Virus record (IMG/VR): IMGVR_UViG_3300028115_000044 | Location: 1 to 41,777 of that record | DNA: 41,777 nt | Reading direction: 5' to 3' (one strand) | From: a virus | Part shown: positions 33,539 to 41,777 of the stretch, piece after piece | Layout: the number at the start of each line of letters is the position of its first letter | How positions within the stretch are numbered: position 1 is the first letter of the stretch | Position numbers and translations under genes: made by a program | The notes under the pieces: generated by a model | The model's input: only the letters and a program-made list of their open reading frames with translations | Database searches by the model: none | Told to the model about the DNA's origin: nothing

Positions 33539-34752
33539 GCTATACTATACAAACCGGCGGTAAACGAATTCAAAGCAATGTTAAACAAAGTGATACCACT
33601 GGTAGAAATATTATCACTGGAAATTATGTAGGAACTGTTTCAGAGCATTATGATTCATTACATACTGGAAGAATAGGTGTGGTTATTCCTGAATTTGGCA
33701 CTGATGATTCAGTTATTGTTTTATTAGTAACACCATTTGGTGGTGTTACAGAAGCATTAGATTCCGGAAAACAACCGGATGTGTTTGGTAATGATGAAGA
33801 AGGATCCGGCGGTACTCCTAAAAGTTATGGTATGTGGCCACAACCTCCTGCGATCGGTACAGAAGTTCTTGTTGCGTTCACAGCAAGTAGACGTGAGGGA
33901 TTTTTAATTGGTAGTTTTATAAGCAAAGATAGAAATCATATGATGGGAGGTCGTGCTAGTGCTGAAAGTTTCGATGGAACTATCCAACCAGTTGGTGAAA
34001 AAAATCCTTATGACCTAACAGGTGGAACAATCAAACCAAAAGACGAAGTATTTGCTGATACATTAAAAACACAAGGATTAGAAGAAGATTACAGCCGTGG
34101 TCATAGTGGAAGTAGTGCAAGGCGAGAAACACCGAGCCGTGTTTTTGGAATTACAACAAGGGGCGGACACGTCTTCACAATGGATGATGGAACAGCCGAA
34201 GATGCACTAAGTCGTAATATTAGAATCAGAAGTCGCGGCGGCGCACAGATACTAATTGATGACACCAATGAATTTGTATTCATAACTAATCATAAAGGTA
34301 ATGCTTGGATTGAAATAGATGCGGATGGTCGAATTGACGTGTACAGTCAAAATGATATTAGTTATCATTCTGAAGGTGATTTTAATGTACACGCCAAGGG
34401 AAGAATTAATATGGAAAGTGATATTGGTATTAATATTAGAAGTACCGGTAGTGATGGTGTCAAAGTCGATGCAACTACTGCAGACGTTGATGTGTTCGCT
34501 GGTAATGATTTTCAAATACAAGCGGCAGTAAACGGAAATGTAAAGGCGGGAGGCAACTATAAAGAAACTGCTAACCGTATTGATATGAATGGTCCACCCG
34601 CCACTGATGCCAGTAGAATTATTACAAAAGAATTAGTCGGAAATAAAAATATATTAAAGAGTGCAGCTACCCGAGTTCCTGAACATCATCCTTGGAAAGG
34701 TGCAAGTACCATAGAAGAAACATTTGAGACAGCAAAAGGTAATACTGCATAA
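33535..34752 (+). CDS. gp5: Baseplate central spike protein gp5 (without lysozyme domain)
   Basis: A 405-residue spike. An OB-fold occupies about residues 28-135 (GNYVGTVSEHYDSLHTGRIG ... GTEVLVAFTASRREGFLIGS). A linker follows, then repeated beta-helix strands at about 225-350 (ARGRIDV-, INMESDIGINI- and GSDGVKVDA-type octets). T4 gp5 carries a lysozyme domain between OB-fold and beta-helix; here that space holds only about 80 residues with no lysozyme motif. The gene after it encodes a lysozyme-like protein. It trimerises to puncture the outer membrane. Confidence 0.88.
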   Translation: MSYTIQTGGKRIQSNVKQSDTTGRNIITGNYVGTVSEHYDSLHTGRIGVVIPEFGTDDSVIVLLVTPFGGVTEALDSGKQPDVFGNDEEGSGGTPKSYGMWPQPPAIGTEVLVAFTASRREGFLIGSFISKDRNHMMGGRASAESFDGTIQPVGEKNPYDLTGGTIKPKDEVFADTLKTQGLEEDYSRGHSGSSARRETPSRVFGITTRGGHVFTMDDGTAEDALSRNIRIRSRGGAQILIDDTNEFVFITNHKGNAWIEIDADGRIDVYSQNDISYHSEGDFNVHAKGRINMESDIGINIRSTGSDGVKVDATTADVDVFAGNDFQIQAAVNGNVKAGGNYKETANRIDMNGPPATDASRIITKELVGNKNILKSAATRVPEHHPWKGASTIEETFETAKGNTA

Positions 34753-35486
34753 TGGCAACTTATAATCTTCCTAATACAATAAGAGATAAAGATTTAATTG
34801 AGTTTGATCTGTTTACAGTAAAAGACTCGAGCTTGGTTAACGATAAGAAAATTTTACAAAATCTTGAAGCAAGTTCTAGTTTAATTAATACGATTCTAAG
34901 AGAAAAAAAGTGGCGAGGCTACTCTTATATAGAAAATGGTGTTAGAAAAATTGGATATGGATTAACAGCGGGCGCCGAATCAGACGGGTTATCAGAAATT
35001 CAATCATATGGTTATTTTATAGAAGATTTCAAACAAAAAGAAAGAAACTTTAAAAAGTTATTACCGCTTAACTATATTTCACAATCATGCTATGATGCAT
35101 TATTAAGTTTATATTATTATACAGGAACAATAAAAACTATTGGATCTAAATCTAGACGTTTTGATATCAATGATTATGTGATAAATGAAAAATGGCAATA
35201 TATTGCTAGTATACTTGTATTAACGAATGATAATAGAACTATTAGACAATTAGAGGCAAGTATAATGATGCTCGCTGATTATGGAAGTCAAAAAGACAGA
35301 ACTACTATTAGATCGCAAGGCATTCAAGAAATAAGAACATTATATCCGAATAGATTTGATGATACCCTTTCTTTAAAACAAGCAGAATATATCTATTATA
35401 AGGAAACGAAAAGATTTTTACCTCTCATGACGCAAAGTAGAAAGCGCCAAATTGTGAATCAAATAAACAGTGAAATAGATGACTAA
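34752..35486 (+). CDS. Lysozyme-like protein adjacent to gp5 (244 aa)
   Basis: Residues about 44-125 resemble the GH24 (T4 lysozyme) fold. LREKKWRGYSYIENG and RKIGYG (66-70) correspond to the glutamate helix and the first beta-sheet of T4 lysozyme, and YDALLSLYYYTG corresponds to its helical bundle. E51 could be the general acid and E61 would take the place of D20, but the T26 position seems to be Lys or Arg. Activity may therefore be altered or lost. The N-terminal 40 residues and the C-terminal 110 have no motif I recognise. The ATG overlaps the gp5 stop. A role as the detached tail lysozyme is inferred; a structural hub protein is the alternative. Confidence 0.6.
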   Translation: MATYNLPNTIRDKDLIEFDLFTVKDSSLVNDKKILQNLEASSSLINTILREKKWRGYSYIENGVRKIGYGLTAGAESDGLSEIQSYGYFIEDFKQKERNFKKLLPLNYISQSCYDALLSLYYYTGTIKTIGSKSRRFDINDYVINEKWQYIASILVLTNDNRTIRQLEASIMMLADYGSQKDRTTIRSQGIQEIRTLYPNRFDDTLSLKQAEYIYYKETKRFLPLMTQSRKRQIVNQINSEIDD

Positions 35487-35490
35487 ATAT
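35481..35490 (+). promoter_or_regulatory. Late-type promoter (GACTAAATAT) 4 bp before the HNH ATG
   Basis: GACTAAATAT overlaps the stop of the preceding gene and is four bases from the ATG at 35495. The 13-mer ATGACTAAATATT recurs, with identical spacing, before gp25. If used, transcripts would be leaderless or nearly so. Confidence 0.55.
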
Positions 35491-35494
35491 TTGC

Positions 35495-36046
35495 ATGAGT
35501 GTTTTACTTCTTAATGCCGACGGGCAACCATTAAGTCTATTACCGCTAAGTACAATATCTTGGCAATCAGCGGTTAAGGCATTGTTTCAAGACAAAGTTA
35601 GAGTTGTTAAAGAGCATGAAACTCGTGTTCTCCATAGCCCTAGTTTTGAAATGCCACTTCCAACTATTGTTATGTTAAAGCAGTGGCATAGAATGCCTGA
35701 TAAAGCAAAATTTACCCGGCGAAATTTGTTTCTTCGGGATAATTTTCAATGTCAGTATTGCTTTACAGAATTCCGGCAATGTGATTTAACCATAGATCAT
35801 GTATTACCCCGGAGCCACGGTGGCAGAACAAATTGGACAAACTGTACCACCGCATGTAGGAAATGTAATACTGCAAAGTCCAACAACCCAAATGTAAAAC
35901 CAGCAACCCTTCCCGCACAACCAACATACTATCAACTCAATAAAAAATGTTCAAAATTTTTAAAATTTGAAAAAATTCATCCAGATTGGACTCCATATCT
36001 CGCAATTCCTCAAGATATAAAATATTTTGAATCAGAAGTAGCCTAA
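35495..36046 (+). CDS. HNH endonuclease inside the baseplate operon (183 aa)
   Basis: A single-domain HNH nuclease. CQYC (C86, C89) and CRKC (C121, C124) bind zinc, IDHVLPRSHGG gives the catalytic H102, and TNWTNC supplies the conserved Asn. The N-terminal LLNADGQPLSLLPLSTISWQ and KFTRRNLFLRDNFQCQYC segments match the widespread bacterial HNH family, not intron-type homing enzymes. It sits between the lysozyme-like gene and gp25 with its own late-type promoter, and no ribosome site is visible. An AAAAA/TTTTTT stem lies just after its stop (about 36049-36066). Possible roles are late DNA processing or selfish insertion. Confidence 0.88.
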   Translation: MSVLLLNADGQPLSLLPLSTISWQSAVKALFQDKVRVVKEHETRVLHSPSFEMPLPTIVMLKQWHRMPDKAKFTRRNLFLRDNFQCQYCFTEFRQCDLTIDHVLPRSHGGRTNWTNCTTACRKCNTAKSNNPNVKPATLPAQPTYYQLNKKCSKFLKFEKIHPDWTPYLAIPQDIKYFESEVA

Positions 36047-36082: not shown

Positions 36083-36454
36083 ATGAACAAAATAATTGGA
36101 TATACCACACAAAAATCAAATAGAAGTGCAACCATATTAAGTGGATTGGAACTTGCTAAACAGGATCTTCATAACCATTTTAATATCCGTAAGGGTGAAA
36201 AATGGACTAATCCTGATTTTGGTAGTGACTTGCCTTTATATGTGTTTCAACCATTAGATGAGACAACAATACAGTTGATAGAAGAGGACGTCTACAATGT
36301 AGTAAGTTATGATCCTAGATTTGATTTAATTGATAGAAATGTAAGGGTATCAGAAGATGAGCATAGCATCACAGTTAGAATCCAATTACTGTATTTGCCA
36401 ACTACAACAGAAACTGCATTACAGTTAAAGTTTGATAAGGAATTTGATAGGTAA
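36083..36454 (+). CDS. gp25: Baseplate wedge protein gp25
   Basis: A 123-residue gp25/W family wedge protein. LAKQDLHNHFNIRKGEKWTN followed by PDFGSDLPLYVFQPLD is the conserved core, including the (I/V)xxxxGEW/K..P.(F/Y)G pattern of the family. The length matches T4 gp25 (132), which initiates sheath polymerisation. It is followed after five bases by gp6, its wedge partner. Confidence 0.92.
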   Translation: MNKIIGYTTQKSNRSATILSGLELAKQDLHNHFNIRKGEKWTNPDFGSDLPLYVFQPLDETTIQLIEEDVYNVVSYDPRFDLIDRNVRVSEDEHSITVRIQLLYLPTTTETALQLKFDKEFDR

Positions 36455-36459
36455 TAGAA

Positions 36460-39400
36460 ATGGCACAACTAGCAAGACAAAGCAGATTATTCGCTGCAGA
36501 AGATTATACAGCAGTATATGAATCTTATGTAAATGCAAATTTTCAAGCATATGATTTTGATACTATTAGAACATCAATGATCGATTATATTAGAATTAAT
36601 TATGCTGAAAGTTATAACGATTGGGTAGAGAGCGCAGAGTTTGTAGCACTCCTCGATGTTATTGCTATGTTTGGACATAACCTAGCATATCGTATAGATT
36701 TAAATAGCCGCAATAGTTTTTTAAGCACTGCTGAAAGACAAGATAGCGTTTTTAAACTAGCAGAATTTTTAGGTTACCAACCACGCAGAAATATTCCTGC
36801 ATTCGGAAATCTCAAAATCACAAGTGTAAAAACAAACGAGGATGTAATAGGTTCTGCAGGAACTTCATTGGGCGGTAAAGAAATACGTTATGATAACAGT
36901 AATGGAGATGACAATATTGATAACTTTATTACTATTTTGAATAGTATGTTTAATGCTAATTCACAATTCGGTAGCCCATTACAACGCACTAAAATTAATA
37001 ATTCAACTGTAGATTTTTATGGACTTAATAACGTTGCAGATCAAATAACATTTTCATTTACAGGATTTGCCCAAGGAACAAATGTCGATTTTAACGCTGT
37101 TAATGTAAAATTAGATACTACATTAAACGCCATTACGGAACGAAATCCTGATCCTAATGGAAGTTTTACTTTGATGTATAAAAATGATGGCGGCGGCATA
37201 AACTCTAATAATAACGGATTCTTTTTTGGATTTAAGCAAGGCCAATTAGCATTCAAAGACTTTTTAATTGAAGAGCCACTAAGCGGAATGACACTTGATA
37301 TTACTGAAGAAAATATTAACAATTCTGATGTGTGGGTCCAAACAGTCAGTAACGACGGGTCAGTTACAACAGAATGGAAACAAGTTGAATCTTCATATGG
37401 TCATAATATTATCTATAATTATTTAGATCAAAAGGAAAGAAATATCTACGCTGTAAAGTCTAGAGAAAACAATCAAATTAGTATTCAATTTGCAGATGAA
37501 AGTTTTGGTAATCTTCCAACTGGTGTAATTCGTGTATGGTATAGAACAAGTGAAAATATAACTTATGTTTTAAGACCAGATGATATCGGAACAAAGAGAA
37601 TTAATATTAATTATGTTGGATCAGATGGAAATGCATATATTGCCACGTTTGGAGTTCAATTAAAAGAAAATGTTATCAACGCTAGTGCAAGTGAAAGTTT
37701 GGACGATATTAAAACAAATGCGCCACGCATTTATGCAAGCCAGGACCGCATGATCACTGCAGATGATTATAATAGTTATTTGTACACACAAAGCGATAAT
37801 ATTAGAAAAATTAAAGGTACTAACAGGACACACAGTGGACATAGTCGTTATGTTGAACTTCGTGATCCTACTGGTGCATACAAAAACTTAAATTTATTTG
37901 GAACAGATGGAAAACTTTATAAAACGAAAAGAGTAAAAACTTCATTTGCTACTGATATTTCATCAGCATCTGTATTTGAAAATTATATTAAACCTGCCAT
38001 ATCGGATGATGAATTAACAAATCTATATTATAGTGAATTCCAATCTACTTTTGATGATATAGCAAATACTCAAGCAAGGAACGTTGGTTGGATTGAAGAT
38101 ATAATTAACATAACATCGAATTCACCTGCAAGAATTACTACAGACACTTCACATAATTTTCAAACAGGACACATAGTTACTTTTGCAGGTGTTGTTGGTA
38201 TGACTGAACTAAACGGTAATTCTTATTATGTAAGAAGAACAGGCTCAACTAGTTTTGAAATATATTCTGATCCAGCGGCAACATCATCCCCAGTAGATAG
38301 TACAGTCTTTACACCATATACAAGTGGTGGAACTGTCACCAGTGACAACACAAAATATAAATGGCAGCAAATAGGTACATCAACTACAGGATATATTATT
38401 GATACCTCGGGTGATATTAAAAGAATTGGTGCCACAGTATCTGGGTTTTTAAAATATCTACAAGTAGGATGTTTGATTAAATTTAAGACACCAACAGGTG
38501 TTTATATATGGGCAAAATTAAGTAAAAGTTTTGCATATGGATTGGGCGTTGATGGTGTTGATGGTAACCCTACAGGATTAACTGCTGATGGAAACTATGG
38601 TGCAGTTAGTTTAGATAATATAATACCTAATAACAGTACCATTGAAGTAGTATATCCTGCATACGCAAGACAATTTACTTCATTAGAGAGAACACAAATT
38701 ATTAACTTTTTAGAAGCAAAACAAAACTTTGCTTTAAAGTATGATTACATTAACTTAGGTTGGGATATTATTGATAGCGATCCATTACCAACTGACAGTA
38801 ATTATGCATTTCCTAGTGTTTTTGACTATTCAACAACGATAGATCATGATAGCGACCCAGCAACTCCTAACAGAGATAACAACTGGTTAATATATGTATC
38901 ATATGATACATCTAGTCCTACTGATAAATGGGATATTTCAACAAGAACAATCAGGTATAAACTACAGAGCAACCAAATTGATTTTGGTAATATTACTAAT
39001 GAATTACAACTTAATGAAAAGTCTGGTAAATCTCAAAGAGATGTAATTAAAATCAGTAACCTTAATGTTGAAAGTTTACCAAGTTCGGATTTCTACATCT
39101 ACGGATATGAATTTGAAACTAATGGTGATCAAAGTGGTATATATGTGAGTGATACTGTGATATTAGCAATGGTTGATAATAACTCTGATGCTAGACCTGA
39201 CAATCCTAATAGTTATAACGCGGTGGTAACTTCGCCGGTTGCAGATACTACATCTACATATGGCGGTTCATATGGTGATAAACTACGCTTTGAATGGACT
39301 CATATTCCATCTGAAGATGAAATTATTGATCCTAGTTTTACAAATATAATCGATGTTTATGTTTTAACAAGAACATATGATACAGAATATAGATCGTGGC

Positions 39401-39897
39401 TAACTACTAGTAGATTAGATTTAGAGATGCCTGAAGTACCTACTATCAATGAATTGAATAGTTCATTCAAGCAACAAACAAATAGAAAAGCAATGAGCGA
39501 TAGTATAATTTATAGACCTGTAAAATATAAAGTGGTGTTTGGTGATAAAGCAAGCACTGAATTCCAAGCAAAGTTTAGGGTCATCAAAGTTCCTGAAACA
39601 GTATATACTGATAATGAAATCAGAGACAAGGTTGTTAATAGTATTACTAATTTCTTTAATATTGATAATTGGGATTTTGGTGAAACTTTTTATTTTACAG
39701 AACTTGCAGCATATGTACATAAGGAACTAGCAGGAATTGTTAGTAGTTTTGTCATAGTCCCTCAGGGGTCTGATAGTGTGTTTGGTGATCTTTTCCAAAT
39801 TACACCAAACAGCGACGAATTATTGATTCCAGATGTGGATGTAAACGATATTGATATTATTGATAGTATCACAAGAACAAATATTAGGCAAGCATAA
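36460..39897 (+). CDS. gp6: Baseplate wedge protein gp6, enlarged (1145 aa)
   Basis: The N-terminal 120 residues (YIRINYAESYNDWVESAEFV, then NLAYRIDLNSRNSFLSTAER) and the C-terminus (FRVIKVPETVYTDNEIRDKV ... FYFTELAAYVHKELAGI) are typical gp6. T4 gp6 has 660 residues, so nearly 500 are extra. Residues about 548-612 form an inserted beta domain (ITSNSPARITTDTSHNFQTG ... ELNGNSYYVRRTGSTSFEIY) of the type found in many phage baseplate and fibre proteins and annotated as E1-FCCH-like. The wedge dimer connects the hub to the rim. There is no catalytic motif. Confidence 0.9.
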   Translation: MAQLARQSRLFAAEDYTAVYESYVNANFQAYDFDTIRTSMIDYIRINYAESYNDWVESAEFVALLDVIAMFGHNLAYRIDLNSRNSFLSTAERQDSVFKLAEFLGYQPRRNIPAFGNLKITSVKTNEDVIGSAGTSLGGKEIRYDNSNGDDNIDNFITILNSMFNANSQFGSPLQRTKINNSTVDFYGLNNVADQITFSFTGFAQGTNVDFNAVNVKLDTTLNAITERNPDPNGSFTLMYKNDGGGINSNNNGFFFGFKQGQLAFKDFLIEEPLSGMTLDITEENINNSDVWVQTVSNDGSVTTEWKQVESSYGHNIIYNYLDQKERNIYAVKSRENNQISIQFADESFGNLPTGVIRVWYRTSENITYVLRPDDIGTKRININYVGSDGNAYIATFGVQLKENVINASASESLDDIKTNAPRIYASQDRMITADDYNSYLYTQSDNIRKIKGTNRTHSGHSRYVELRDPTGAYKNLNLFGTDGKLYKTKRVKTSFATDISSASVFENYIKPAISDDELTNLYYSEFQSTFDDIANTQARNVGWIEDIINITSNSPARITTDTSHNFQTGHIVTFAGVVGMTELNGNSYYVRRTGSTSFEIYSDPAATSSPVDSTVFTPYTSGGTVTSDNTKYKWQQIGTSTTGYIIDTSGDIKRIGATVSGFLKYLQVGCLIKFKTPTGVYIWAKLSKSFAYGLGVDGVDGNPTGLTADGNYGAVSLDNIIPNNSTIEVVYPAYARQFTSLERTQIINFLEAKQNFALKYDYINLGWDIIDSDPLPTDSNYAFPSVFDYSTTIDHDSDPATPNRDNNWLIYVSYDTSSPTDKWDISTRTIRYKLQSNQIDFGNITNELQLNEKSGKSQRDVIKISNLNVESLPSSDFYIYGYEFETNGDQSGIYVSDTVILAMVDNNSDARPDNPNSYNAVVTSPVADTTSTYGGSYGDKLRFEWTHIPSEDEIIDPSFTNIIDVYVLTRTYDTEYRSWLTTSRLDLEMPEVPTINELNSSFKQQTNRKAMSDSIIYRPVKYKVVFGDKASTEFQAKFRVIKVPETVYTDNEIRDKVVNSITNFFNIDNWDFGETFYFTELAAYVHKELAGIVSSFVIVPQGSDSVFGDLFQITPNSDELLIPDVDVNDIDIIDSITRTNIRQA

Positions 39898-39907
39898 GGT
39901 ACATTAA

Positions 39908-41777
39908 ATGTCAGAATTTGAATCAAAAAATCAGAAGGTTCCAAATAAAAAACTTAGAGCCGGTGATTATCCAACTAGAAAAATTAAAACATCAAGTTAT
40001 ATTCCAGCAGTTTTTGAAACAGAACAAAATAAAAAATGGCTAGATTCAACTTTGGATCAACTAGTCAGCAAAGCTGCATTAGAAGATATTGATGGTTATA
40101 TAGGTGACAAATCTGGTAAATCAAGATTAAAAGATGATGTATATGTAACTGAAAGATTTCATAAAAATAATAGACAGGAAAAACAACTAGAACCTGCGAT
40201 CGTCAATAAAGACTTAAACGGAAATATTCAAGATAGATTAAGTGTTGATGATATTGCTAATAGTGTTGCTTTAAATTTTGATACATACGCATATAGCCCT
40301 GCCTATAACAGCCAGGCTTATGTAATGTCGCCACCAATTGATTTTGATAAATTTGTTAATCATAACTCATATTATTGGATGTATGATATGCCTATATATA
40401 CATCTAATAACTTAGGTGAATATGTGTTAAAAGGCGATGGTAATAAATTATCATATTCTTTTAGCGATAATAGACCAATAACAGGAGTTGGTTTAAACGG
40501 CGTAACACAAACAAATGGCGTAGACTACAATTTTAGCTCTGGTGGTACAGTAATTACATTTCTTGTTGCTCCTGGTGTAAACGATACTATTAAATTATTT
40601 GGCAATCAAGTATCATATGGATCATCAAATATTGTTGACGTTATTAATAATGCTGAATATCCTACATACATATTTTCTGATGATGATAATCAATTTGAAT
40701 TACAAAATGGTATTATTATTCGATTTGGCGATGGTTATCCTGCAGAAATATCTAAAAGTGTTTATATTGTAACTGGCGTTGGTACTACTATAACGCTTAG
40801 ATTATATAATAAATTTGAAACCTCAAGTCAAAGAAATATACCATGGTGGGTAGATTATAGCACATATAAAAAAGTGGTTTCAGATTTTTGGGACTTTACA
40901 TCAATAGTATGTTGGGATTATAAACTGCACGGTGTGCCTGACAGTCGACCATTATCGTGGGGTATTCCAGCAAGCCCAAGCTCAATTATTGCAGAGTATA
41001 ATAAAAGAAGATCAGCGCCTGCATGGATTTCAGGAACTAGTTATGTTACAGGTGATTATGTAATATATAATGGAATTGTATATTCTTGTTTAACACCAAA
41101 CTCTGATGCAACATTCACTATTGCTAACTGGACAGTCCTTGGTGAAAACAGTGCTATGTGCCGTTGGTATAATGGCAGCCTTCATAAAACATCGTATCTA
41201 ACTGATGGTCAGATAATTAGAATTGGCAGTGAATGGCCTAGTTTAGGACCTGCCGATCCTTATCAAGTTTATTATGTGGAAGTAGATCAGAATACAGGAC
41301 TGGTTTCATTTACAACTATTATTGGAGCAAGAGTAAAAGAAAATATTTCTAACATTACACAAGCAAATCCAGCAGTAGTAACAACAGTATCACCACACGG
41401 ATTAAACTCTGGCGACTTTATAAGATTTGATAATGTCGGTGGAATGGCTGTTTTAAACGGTAATAAAAAATATTATGTGAAGGTAACTGGTGTAGATACT
41501 TTTGAATTGTATGATGATTTAATACTAGCCACAACTGTAGATACAACATCCGAACCAGCATACACTGGTGGCGGTTATGTATATAATGTACCTGATGGAA
41601 ATGAAATTGAACAGTTTATTGCAAACGGACTTACACAGACGCAACTTGATATAGCAAATACTGTCATTGGTGAATGGGATACAGAAGTTTGGGATAGAAG
41701 ATTTCTTGCTGAAGATACAAAAGATTACCATGTAATCAGTACTAATGATCCAATTGCGACACAGTGGAGTAGAGGAA
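39908..41777 (+). CDS. gp7: Baseplate wedge protein gp7 (partial, runs off right edge)
   Basis: Open from an ATG at 39908 to the window end, 623 codons without a stop. The position right after gp6 and the segment FDKFVNHNSYYWMYDMPIYT (about 145-170) match gp7 of marine T4-like phages; T4 gp7 has 1032 residues. Two inserted modules are visible. Residues about 371-413 (PAWISGTSYVTGDYVIYNGI VYSCLTPN) are a carbohydrate-binding module of the chitin-binding 5/12 type, with W373 and the aromatic pattern intact. Residues about 478-540 (ITQANPAVVTTVSPHGLNSG ... LNGNKKYYVKVTGVDTFELY) are the same FCCH-like domain as in gp6. Confidence 0.82.
   Translation, partial: MSEFESKNQKVPNKKLRAGDYPTRKIKTSSYIPAVFETEQNKKWLDSTLDQLVSKAALEDIDGYIGDKSGKSRLKDDVYVTERFHKNNRQEKQLEPAIVNKDLNGNIQDRLSVDDIANSVALNFDTYAYSPAYNSQAYVMSPPIDFDKFVNHNSYYWMYDMPIYTSNNLGEYVLKGDGNKLSYSFSDNRPITGVGLNGVTQTNGVDYNFSSGGTVITFLVAPGVNDTIKLFGNQVSYGSSNIVDVINNAEYPTYIFSDDDNQFELQNGIIIRFGDGYPAEISKSVYIVTGVGTTITLRLYNKFETSSQRNIPWWVDYSTYKKVVSDFWDFTSIVCWDYKLHGVPDSRPLSWGIPASPSSIIAEYNKRRSAPAWISGTSYVTGDYVIYNGIVYSCLTPNSDATFTIANWTVLGENSAMCRWYNGSLHKTSYLTDGQIIRIGSEWPSLGPADPYQVYYVEVDQNTGLVSFTTIIGARVKENISNITQANPAVVTTVSPHGLNSGDFIRFDNVGGMAVLNGNKKYYVKVTGVDTFELYDDLILATTVDTTSEPAYTGGGYVYNVPDGNEIEQFIANGLTQTQLDIANTVIGEWDTEVWDRRFLAEDTKDYHVISTNDPIATQWSRG

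Follow-up and report, generated by a model that had tools for sequence, protein, structure and literature searches.

Why would a giant protein of the baseplate wedge region carry a domain with the signature of chitin-binding modules, and does such a domain grip a sugar of the host? This question is raised by the last stretch of the viral record IMGVR_UViG_3300028115_000044 (41,777 nucleotides, all of which we call the window), where a first-pass annotation had placed a carbohydrate-binding module inside baseplate wedge protein gp7. The features that frame it, with the related environmental contig L004 used for comparison, are as follows.

36083..36454, plus strand: gp25-like wedge protein (PF04965; phrog_43, phrog_261)
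36460..39897, plus strand: gp6-like wedge protein of 1145 aa, directly upstream of the giant gene (phrog_10646, E 1.3e-270; phrog_219)
39908..41776, plus strand: first 623 aa of a giant protein of the wedge region, in the position of T4 gene 7 (open reading frame; 99% identical to the L004 ORF; phrog_10938 via the L004 copy)

The reading frame opens with an ATG and is still open at the end of the window, and because the 99% identical copy on L004 (one of two environmental contigs with such copies) extends beyond 2453 aa before running off its contig, the window protein is incomplete. That longer copy on L004 hits phrog_10938, the 3324-position profile of a giant structural protein of the virion, at E 7.9e-115, and by tblastn the relatives of the giant are jumbo phages of the PA5oct, Atu_ph07, SCTP-2, RaK2, 121Q and GAP32 kinds; the major capsid protein of the window is up to 69% identical to those of the PA5oct/RaK2-type jumbo phage group. 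Judged by its sequence the window ORF is a member of the giant wedge-region protein family of these PA5oct/RaK2-type phages, which is supported by homology along the protein, with blastp blocks to 12 of the 12 named members compared, and by its place after gp6. Among the named genomes with annotation to inspect, the giant gene follows gp6 in all but SCTP-2, where gp6 lies elsewhere, and gp6 is present in 75 of the 80 best loci (out of at least 581 relatives), ending at or near the start of the giant ORF. The protein is part of the virion mass spectra according to the PA5oct and fENko-Kae01 records, and a 381.88 kDa virion protein, listed beside a baseplate wedge in the portion of the phAPEC6 report available, is probably the orthologue. 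In relatives L072 (9989-23595) and L075 (9947-24675), and perhaps in L068 too, the giant is divided between two ORFs that adjoin or overlap. A megablast of positions 38000-41777 against phages gave no match, and the accessible parts of the RaK2-type phage literature searched contain nothing on domains of the giant protein.

The name gp7 is not supported by sequence and comes from gene position only: the giant gene is the one that immediately follows gp6 in its cluster with gp25, and T4 likewise has gene 6 followed by gene 7. Alignment by hhalign of 12 giants (L004's 2453 columns) with seven T4-like gp7 proteins gave a best probability of 0.2% (E 0.39) and hmmsearch a best E of 0.19 among the giants, on which we rejected the identification as gp7 by sequence; that as gp8 was rejected likewise (E 0.2). 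Because no sequence relation to T4-like gp7 was seen we treat the label as positional, and since the L004 ORF at 2453 aa still runs off its contig, the giant is not a gp7 of T4 size (1032 aa). The two may still be related in structure; the model of the whole 623 aa (61 sequences) has a mean pLDDT of 43.9, too poor for a fold search or for judging whether the module is exposed on the baseplate rim. Two cyanophages, L025 (4573-17001, NC_027130) and L026 (3344-14308), also have giant proteins directly after gp6, of about 6420 and 3654 aa by annotation; against T4 gp7 one shows a weak local match at E 3.8e-6 and the other only 0.027, and neither matches our giants (best E 0.065). The window also encodes a lysozyme-like protein, as a separate gene, and an HNH endonuclease between the gp5-like hub and gp25 (34752-36046).

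Within this protein and its gp6 neighbour the following domains and blocks could be delimited.

38101..38340, plus strand: E1_FCCH-like domain in gp6, residues 548-627 (PF16190, 51.8 bits; position from the same-length L004 copy)
39983..40798, plus strand: N-terminal block conserved across the giant family, residues about 26-297 (blastp blocks; conserved columns of alignment A2)
40979..41686, plus strand: stretch that close relatives lack, residues about 358-593 with approximate edges (L031 HSPs; Phosso comparison)
41021..41146, plus strand: ChtBD3-fold (CBM5/12-like) module, residues 372-413 (PF02839, 31.3 bits; AlphaFold2 pLDDT 77-86 over most of it; PDB fold matches)
41345..41590, plus strand: E1_FCCH-like beta domain sharing that stretch with the module, residues 480-561 (PF16190, 45.1 bits over 487-561; own profile at 480-559 in L004)
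41687..41776, plus strand: opening of the following conserved block, in which the WSRxNxWVH motif begins, residues 594-623 (invariant W620 and S621 in alignment A1)

The W...Y..GD.V.Y.G..Y pattern that the first-pass annotation had read in residues about 371-413 is real and lies where it was placed, with W373, Y379, G382-D383, V385, Y387, G389, Y392 and C394 followed by F403 and W408. Pfam PF02839 (CBM_5_12) matches residues 372-399 over profile positions 1-28 of 44 at 31.3 bits (E 2.1e-7), above the curated cut-off of 26.2 bits, and the 56-residue piece alone reaches 34.4 bits (E 2.2e-8); no other PF02839 match turns up in the window at E 1 or below, and the L004 giant has a second match near its contig end (28.2 bits). 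We rejected a chance match, as a family profile iterated from the two module copies of the window lineage finds 142 domains in the family proteins (135 at a stricter count) in the set built on the best 80 of at least 581 relatives, and none in reversed or shuffled proteins. AlphaFold2, given the 56-residue segment with 103 family segments, predicted the expected fold with a mean pLDDT of 75 (77-86 over segment residues 11-50), and the unrelated fold against which the first-pass annotation had staked its claim did not appear. A CBM5/12-type domain on a protein of the baseplate wedge region, and not on a fibre, is likewise supported.

What the domain does is less readily read from its fold. In chitinase A1 the fold core consists of Trp656, Tyr662, Tyr670, Tyr675 and Trp696 with Val668, Cys677 and Leu695, and the surface residue Trp687 binds chitin (PMC3701571), while CBM5 domains use an aromatic pair for binding (PMC8449059). 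The window copy retains the aromatic fold core of CBM5/12 (W373, Y379, V385, Y387, Y392, C394 and W408), so that W656, Y662, V668, Y670, Y675, C677 and W696 of the chitinase A1 domain are all kept; it differs from that domain, however, in having F403 at the Trp687 column, a shortened loop around that residue, Asn in place of Leu695, no YW/WW pair of the CBM5 kind and a Pfam match that stops at position 28 of 44. Across the 135 family domains the core is similarly kept (W656 in 120, Y662 in 120, V668 in 119, Y675 in 114), the ligand position 687 is Phe in 108 and Trp in 0, and a simple pattern finds the CBM5 pair in none. With Trp687 replaced by Phe, the loop shortened and the aromatic pair absent, the sugar binding that the first-pass annotation attributed to the domain is, as far as these residues indicate, possible but unsupported; other residues of the module could bind a different sugar.

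An alternative in which the module binds a polysaccharide of the host surface, and would thereby provide a second contact between baseplate and cell, does have precedents. The wedge protein Gp119 of phage Vp4 carries CBM folds and decorates Bacillus cereus cells, whereas its homologue without CBMs does not (PMC11406892), and Alg11 of AlgoCIS has two CBM-like modules in the baseplate cage (PMC8894135). The window copy itself also speaks for this alternative, in that its Pfam score is the highest of the seven phage sequences scored, except for gp6 of Vibrio phage 2.275, and in that it is nearer to the chitinase domain 1ED7 (38% over 39 columns) than to any member of its own family (35% at most), which makes it the most chitinase-like of the set. 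That gp6 has three tandem CBM5/12-like domains at residues 694-830 (L011, 4950-8813). The precedents, however, belong to other CBM families, and Vp4 Gp119, although like the window protein in bearing a CBM fold on a wedge protein, differs in its CBM family, in its Gram-positive host and in that its cell binding was shown experimentally (PMC11406892). In phage A-1(L), moreover, a CBM on the neck fibre did not bind the host (PMC10966104). Together with the Phe at the chitin-contact position, the shortened loop and the missing CBM5 pair, these points leave binding of a host polysaccharide rather doubtful in our estimation.

Comparison with known structures leads elsewhere. Foldseek matched the model to chitinases, chitin deacetylases, Milano spike chains, the 7-7-1 fibre and an Anabaena injection-system baseplate protein, with probabilities of 0.97-1.00 and E values of 0.014 to 0.13 among the 50 matches listed and none at E 0.001 or better. 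VIA-align ranked Milano spike 8fqc_P1 (Z 7.5) and 7-7-1 fibre 9rkv_M (Z 7.2) ahead of deacetylases (6.6) and 1ED7 (4.2), differences in Z below 1 being ties and a best Z below 8 being middling; its fold matches include the tailspike receptor-binding domain 7eea (Z 5.3), which is not an anchoring place. When PDB sequences are instead ordered by E value against the family profile, chitin-oligosaccharide deacetylases lead at 4.3e-13 (best stretch at profile positions 4-37, a second deacetylase stretch at 4-47), followed by the 7-7-1 tail fibre 9rkv_M (1.9e-10, 7-49, two stretches), the Milano tail spike gp124 8fqc_P1 (8.4e-9, 7-47, two stretches), ChiA1 (1e-8, 9-44) and chitodextrinase 9x9r (6.2e-5, 4-55). 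Weaker matches are a long-tail-fibre proximal subunit (0.033, 3-49), the F2-pyocin tail fibre (0.045, at fibre residues 861-908, far from its N-terminus) and chitinase B (0.055-0.12, 7-47). The module thus matches as the spike and fibre anchoring modules of ChtBD3 fold do, with the profile running through the F...W ending, and the strongest matches that run through this ending are phage anchoring modules; the ending is not exclusive to those, however, and is no mark of phages alone, because chitodextrinase, chitinase B and the second deacetylase stretch reach it too.

In Milano the N-terminal domains of the spike are wedged between BW2 and BW3, and a segment with PFDPANWQ contacts BW3 (PMC10811340); from the aligned ranges and the 7-7-1 alignment we equate its PFDPANW motif with F403-W408. 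In the 7-7-1 fibre residues 1-120 are the baseplate anchor (PMC12796354). Both tail-binding modules share with ours the profile match (7-47 and 7-49), the best structural Z and the F...W ending, but they are paired and sit on a spike or fibre, whereas the window module is on a wedge-region protein. Head domain D2 of CBA120 TSP1 has a published fold like 1ED7, although its authors deem the resemblance to the chitin-binding domain of unknown significance (PMC3966878); N-terminal domains mediate tailspike assembly (PMC10253068), and chitin is not mentioned in the available portions of the literature on its TSP4. With moderate confidence we favour the reading that the module is a genuine ChtBD3 fold in a variable N-terminal segment, most likely serving baseplate docking or stiffening and not the binding of chitin or sugar. 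It would act as a small protein-docking or stiffening part of the baseplate, comparable to the modules by which some contractile-tail spikes are anchored at their N-termini, and the window copy might contact another protein, conceivably of the baseplate or of a fibre. Docking is more likely than binding of a host sugar because the chitin-gripping residue is missing and relatives reuse the fold in the giant protein.

A third reading sees in the module passive filler with no partner, a small and stable fold shuffled into the length-variable segments of very large tail proteins. The N-terminal part of the giant is indeed variable. By pairwise blastp (a 12-row MAFFT alignment misplaced the region) all 12 named relatives can be aligned inside residues 24-297, in many cases no further than about 157, and in 4 of the 12 a further aligned block starts between 537 and 620. 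Phosso has about 11 aa in place of window residues 298-604 (307 aa), and residues of about 358-593 appear to be missing in L031, because its blocks matching 15-357 and 594-681 overlap there, the first of them weak at its end. Contrary to a clean insertion, weak alignments run from the end block back to 386-549 in six relatives (L053, L069, L089, L099, L101 and L108), and FCCH-like matches occur elsewhere in the giants of L050, L052, L053, L063 and L094. These alignments place both domains, the CBM-like and the FCCH-like, in a stretch absent from close relatives; some of it may be shared sequence that has diverged. Three FCCH-type domains that closely resemble one another occur in the window lineage, where gp6 has one and the giant the other two (the third seen only in L004, residues 684-766), suggesting that an FCCH module was copied between neighbouring wedge genes.

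Passive filling would suit a segment that is a length hotspot, the WSR motif being preceded by anywhere from 261 to 856 aa among 64 relatives, and in which unrelated domains occur: Pfam finds CBM_5_12 in 4, DUF2460 in 4, FCCH in 3, YHYH in 1 and Kelch in 1 of 61 N-terminal segments, three of the four CBM_5_12 matches presumably being the window and its two near-identical copies. An N-terminal module copy is also present in only 3 of 77 giants, and the copy of the window lineage has counterparts only in L074 and L091, in the set with the best 80 of at least 581 relatives.

Elsewhere in the giants, however, the module recurs in a more orderly manner. From the scan of viral contigs with its at least 581 relatives the best 80 loci were kept, including fragments, split ORFs and near-duplicates, and the window protein, L003, PAC2 and the window's gp6 were removed as near-duplicates before domains were counted. 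In this set 75 of 96 giants and 5 of 88 gp6 proteins bear the module, as do 61 of 79 clusters defined by shared 5-mers and 43 of 56 among ORFs closed at both ends, and it is absent from the remaining ORFs of 100 aa or more in these loci, which are centred on this region. The two landmarks needed to fix positions could both be placed in only 29 of the 96 giants of the set; near-duplicates included, 15 of the 29 have a copy between the landmarks (14 of them 77-79 aa before the second) and 16 of the 29 have one 178-179 aa after the second landmark. Such near-constant spacing at two sites in environmental contigs, one of which also holds in PA5oct, argues against passive insertion, which would not keep spacing, and we therefore consider filler without a partner unlikely. 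The giants of PA5oct, Atu_ph07, RaK2, 121Q and GAP32 (phrog_10938) belong to one protein family with the window protein and directly follow gp6, but differ from it in that the CBM-like domain is elsewhere or absent: PA5oct has a copy near residues 1596-1631, and no copy was found in the six RaK2-type members of the set (RaK2, 121Q, GAP32, XaC1, fENko-Kae01 and Hallingskeid), nor in XacN1. With a looser profile, further weak copies show up in Atu_ph07 and Phosso, also in gp6; these are not part of the stricter count.

Returning to docking, several of these observations also weaken it. The Milano module sits on a spike and not on a wedge; the window copy is the most chitinase-like and deacetylases lead the PDB matches by E; the matches to 7eea and the F2-pyocin fibre are not at anchoring places; and Foldseek gave no match at E 0.001, the best Z is below 8 and 4 of the 7 phage sequences fall below the Pfam cut-off, which the other 3 pass. 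In all seven the best PF02839 stretch starts at position 1 or 2 and ends at 24-29, compared with 1-44 in 1ED7. A docking or structural role nevertheless fits the family evidence better than a sugar role, our confidence being reduced because chitin-active proteins reach the end of the profile and because the pyocin fibre match lies away from the N-terminus. More tentatively, and with some doubt on our part, the ligand-less chitin-binding fold might be a standard plug of contractile tails that is found on spikes and, in jumbo phages, in one to four copies per giant wedge protein, often at set sites, where copy number and place would set fibre attachment.

Taken together, our finding is a variant of something known, since a cell-binding CBM on a wedge is already known from Vp4 (PMC11406892), and the domain is already labelled in some public records, PP408249 and Vibrio phage 2.275, where such proteins are named as binders of chitin or carbohydrate. 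The apparently new element is that a site-less fold recurs in a giant wedge protein, no report of the module in jumbo phage wedge proteins having been found in the literature searched. If the fold is a docking module without a sugar site, those public labels would mislead inferences of host range, and if docking is true, the repeats would mark the attachment points of fibres or partner proteins on the baseplate in a large family of jumbo phages.
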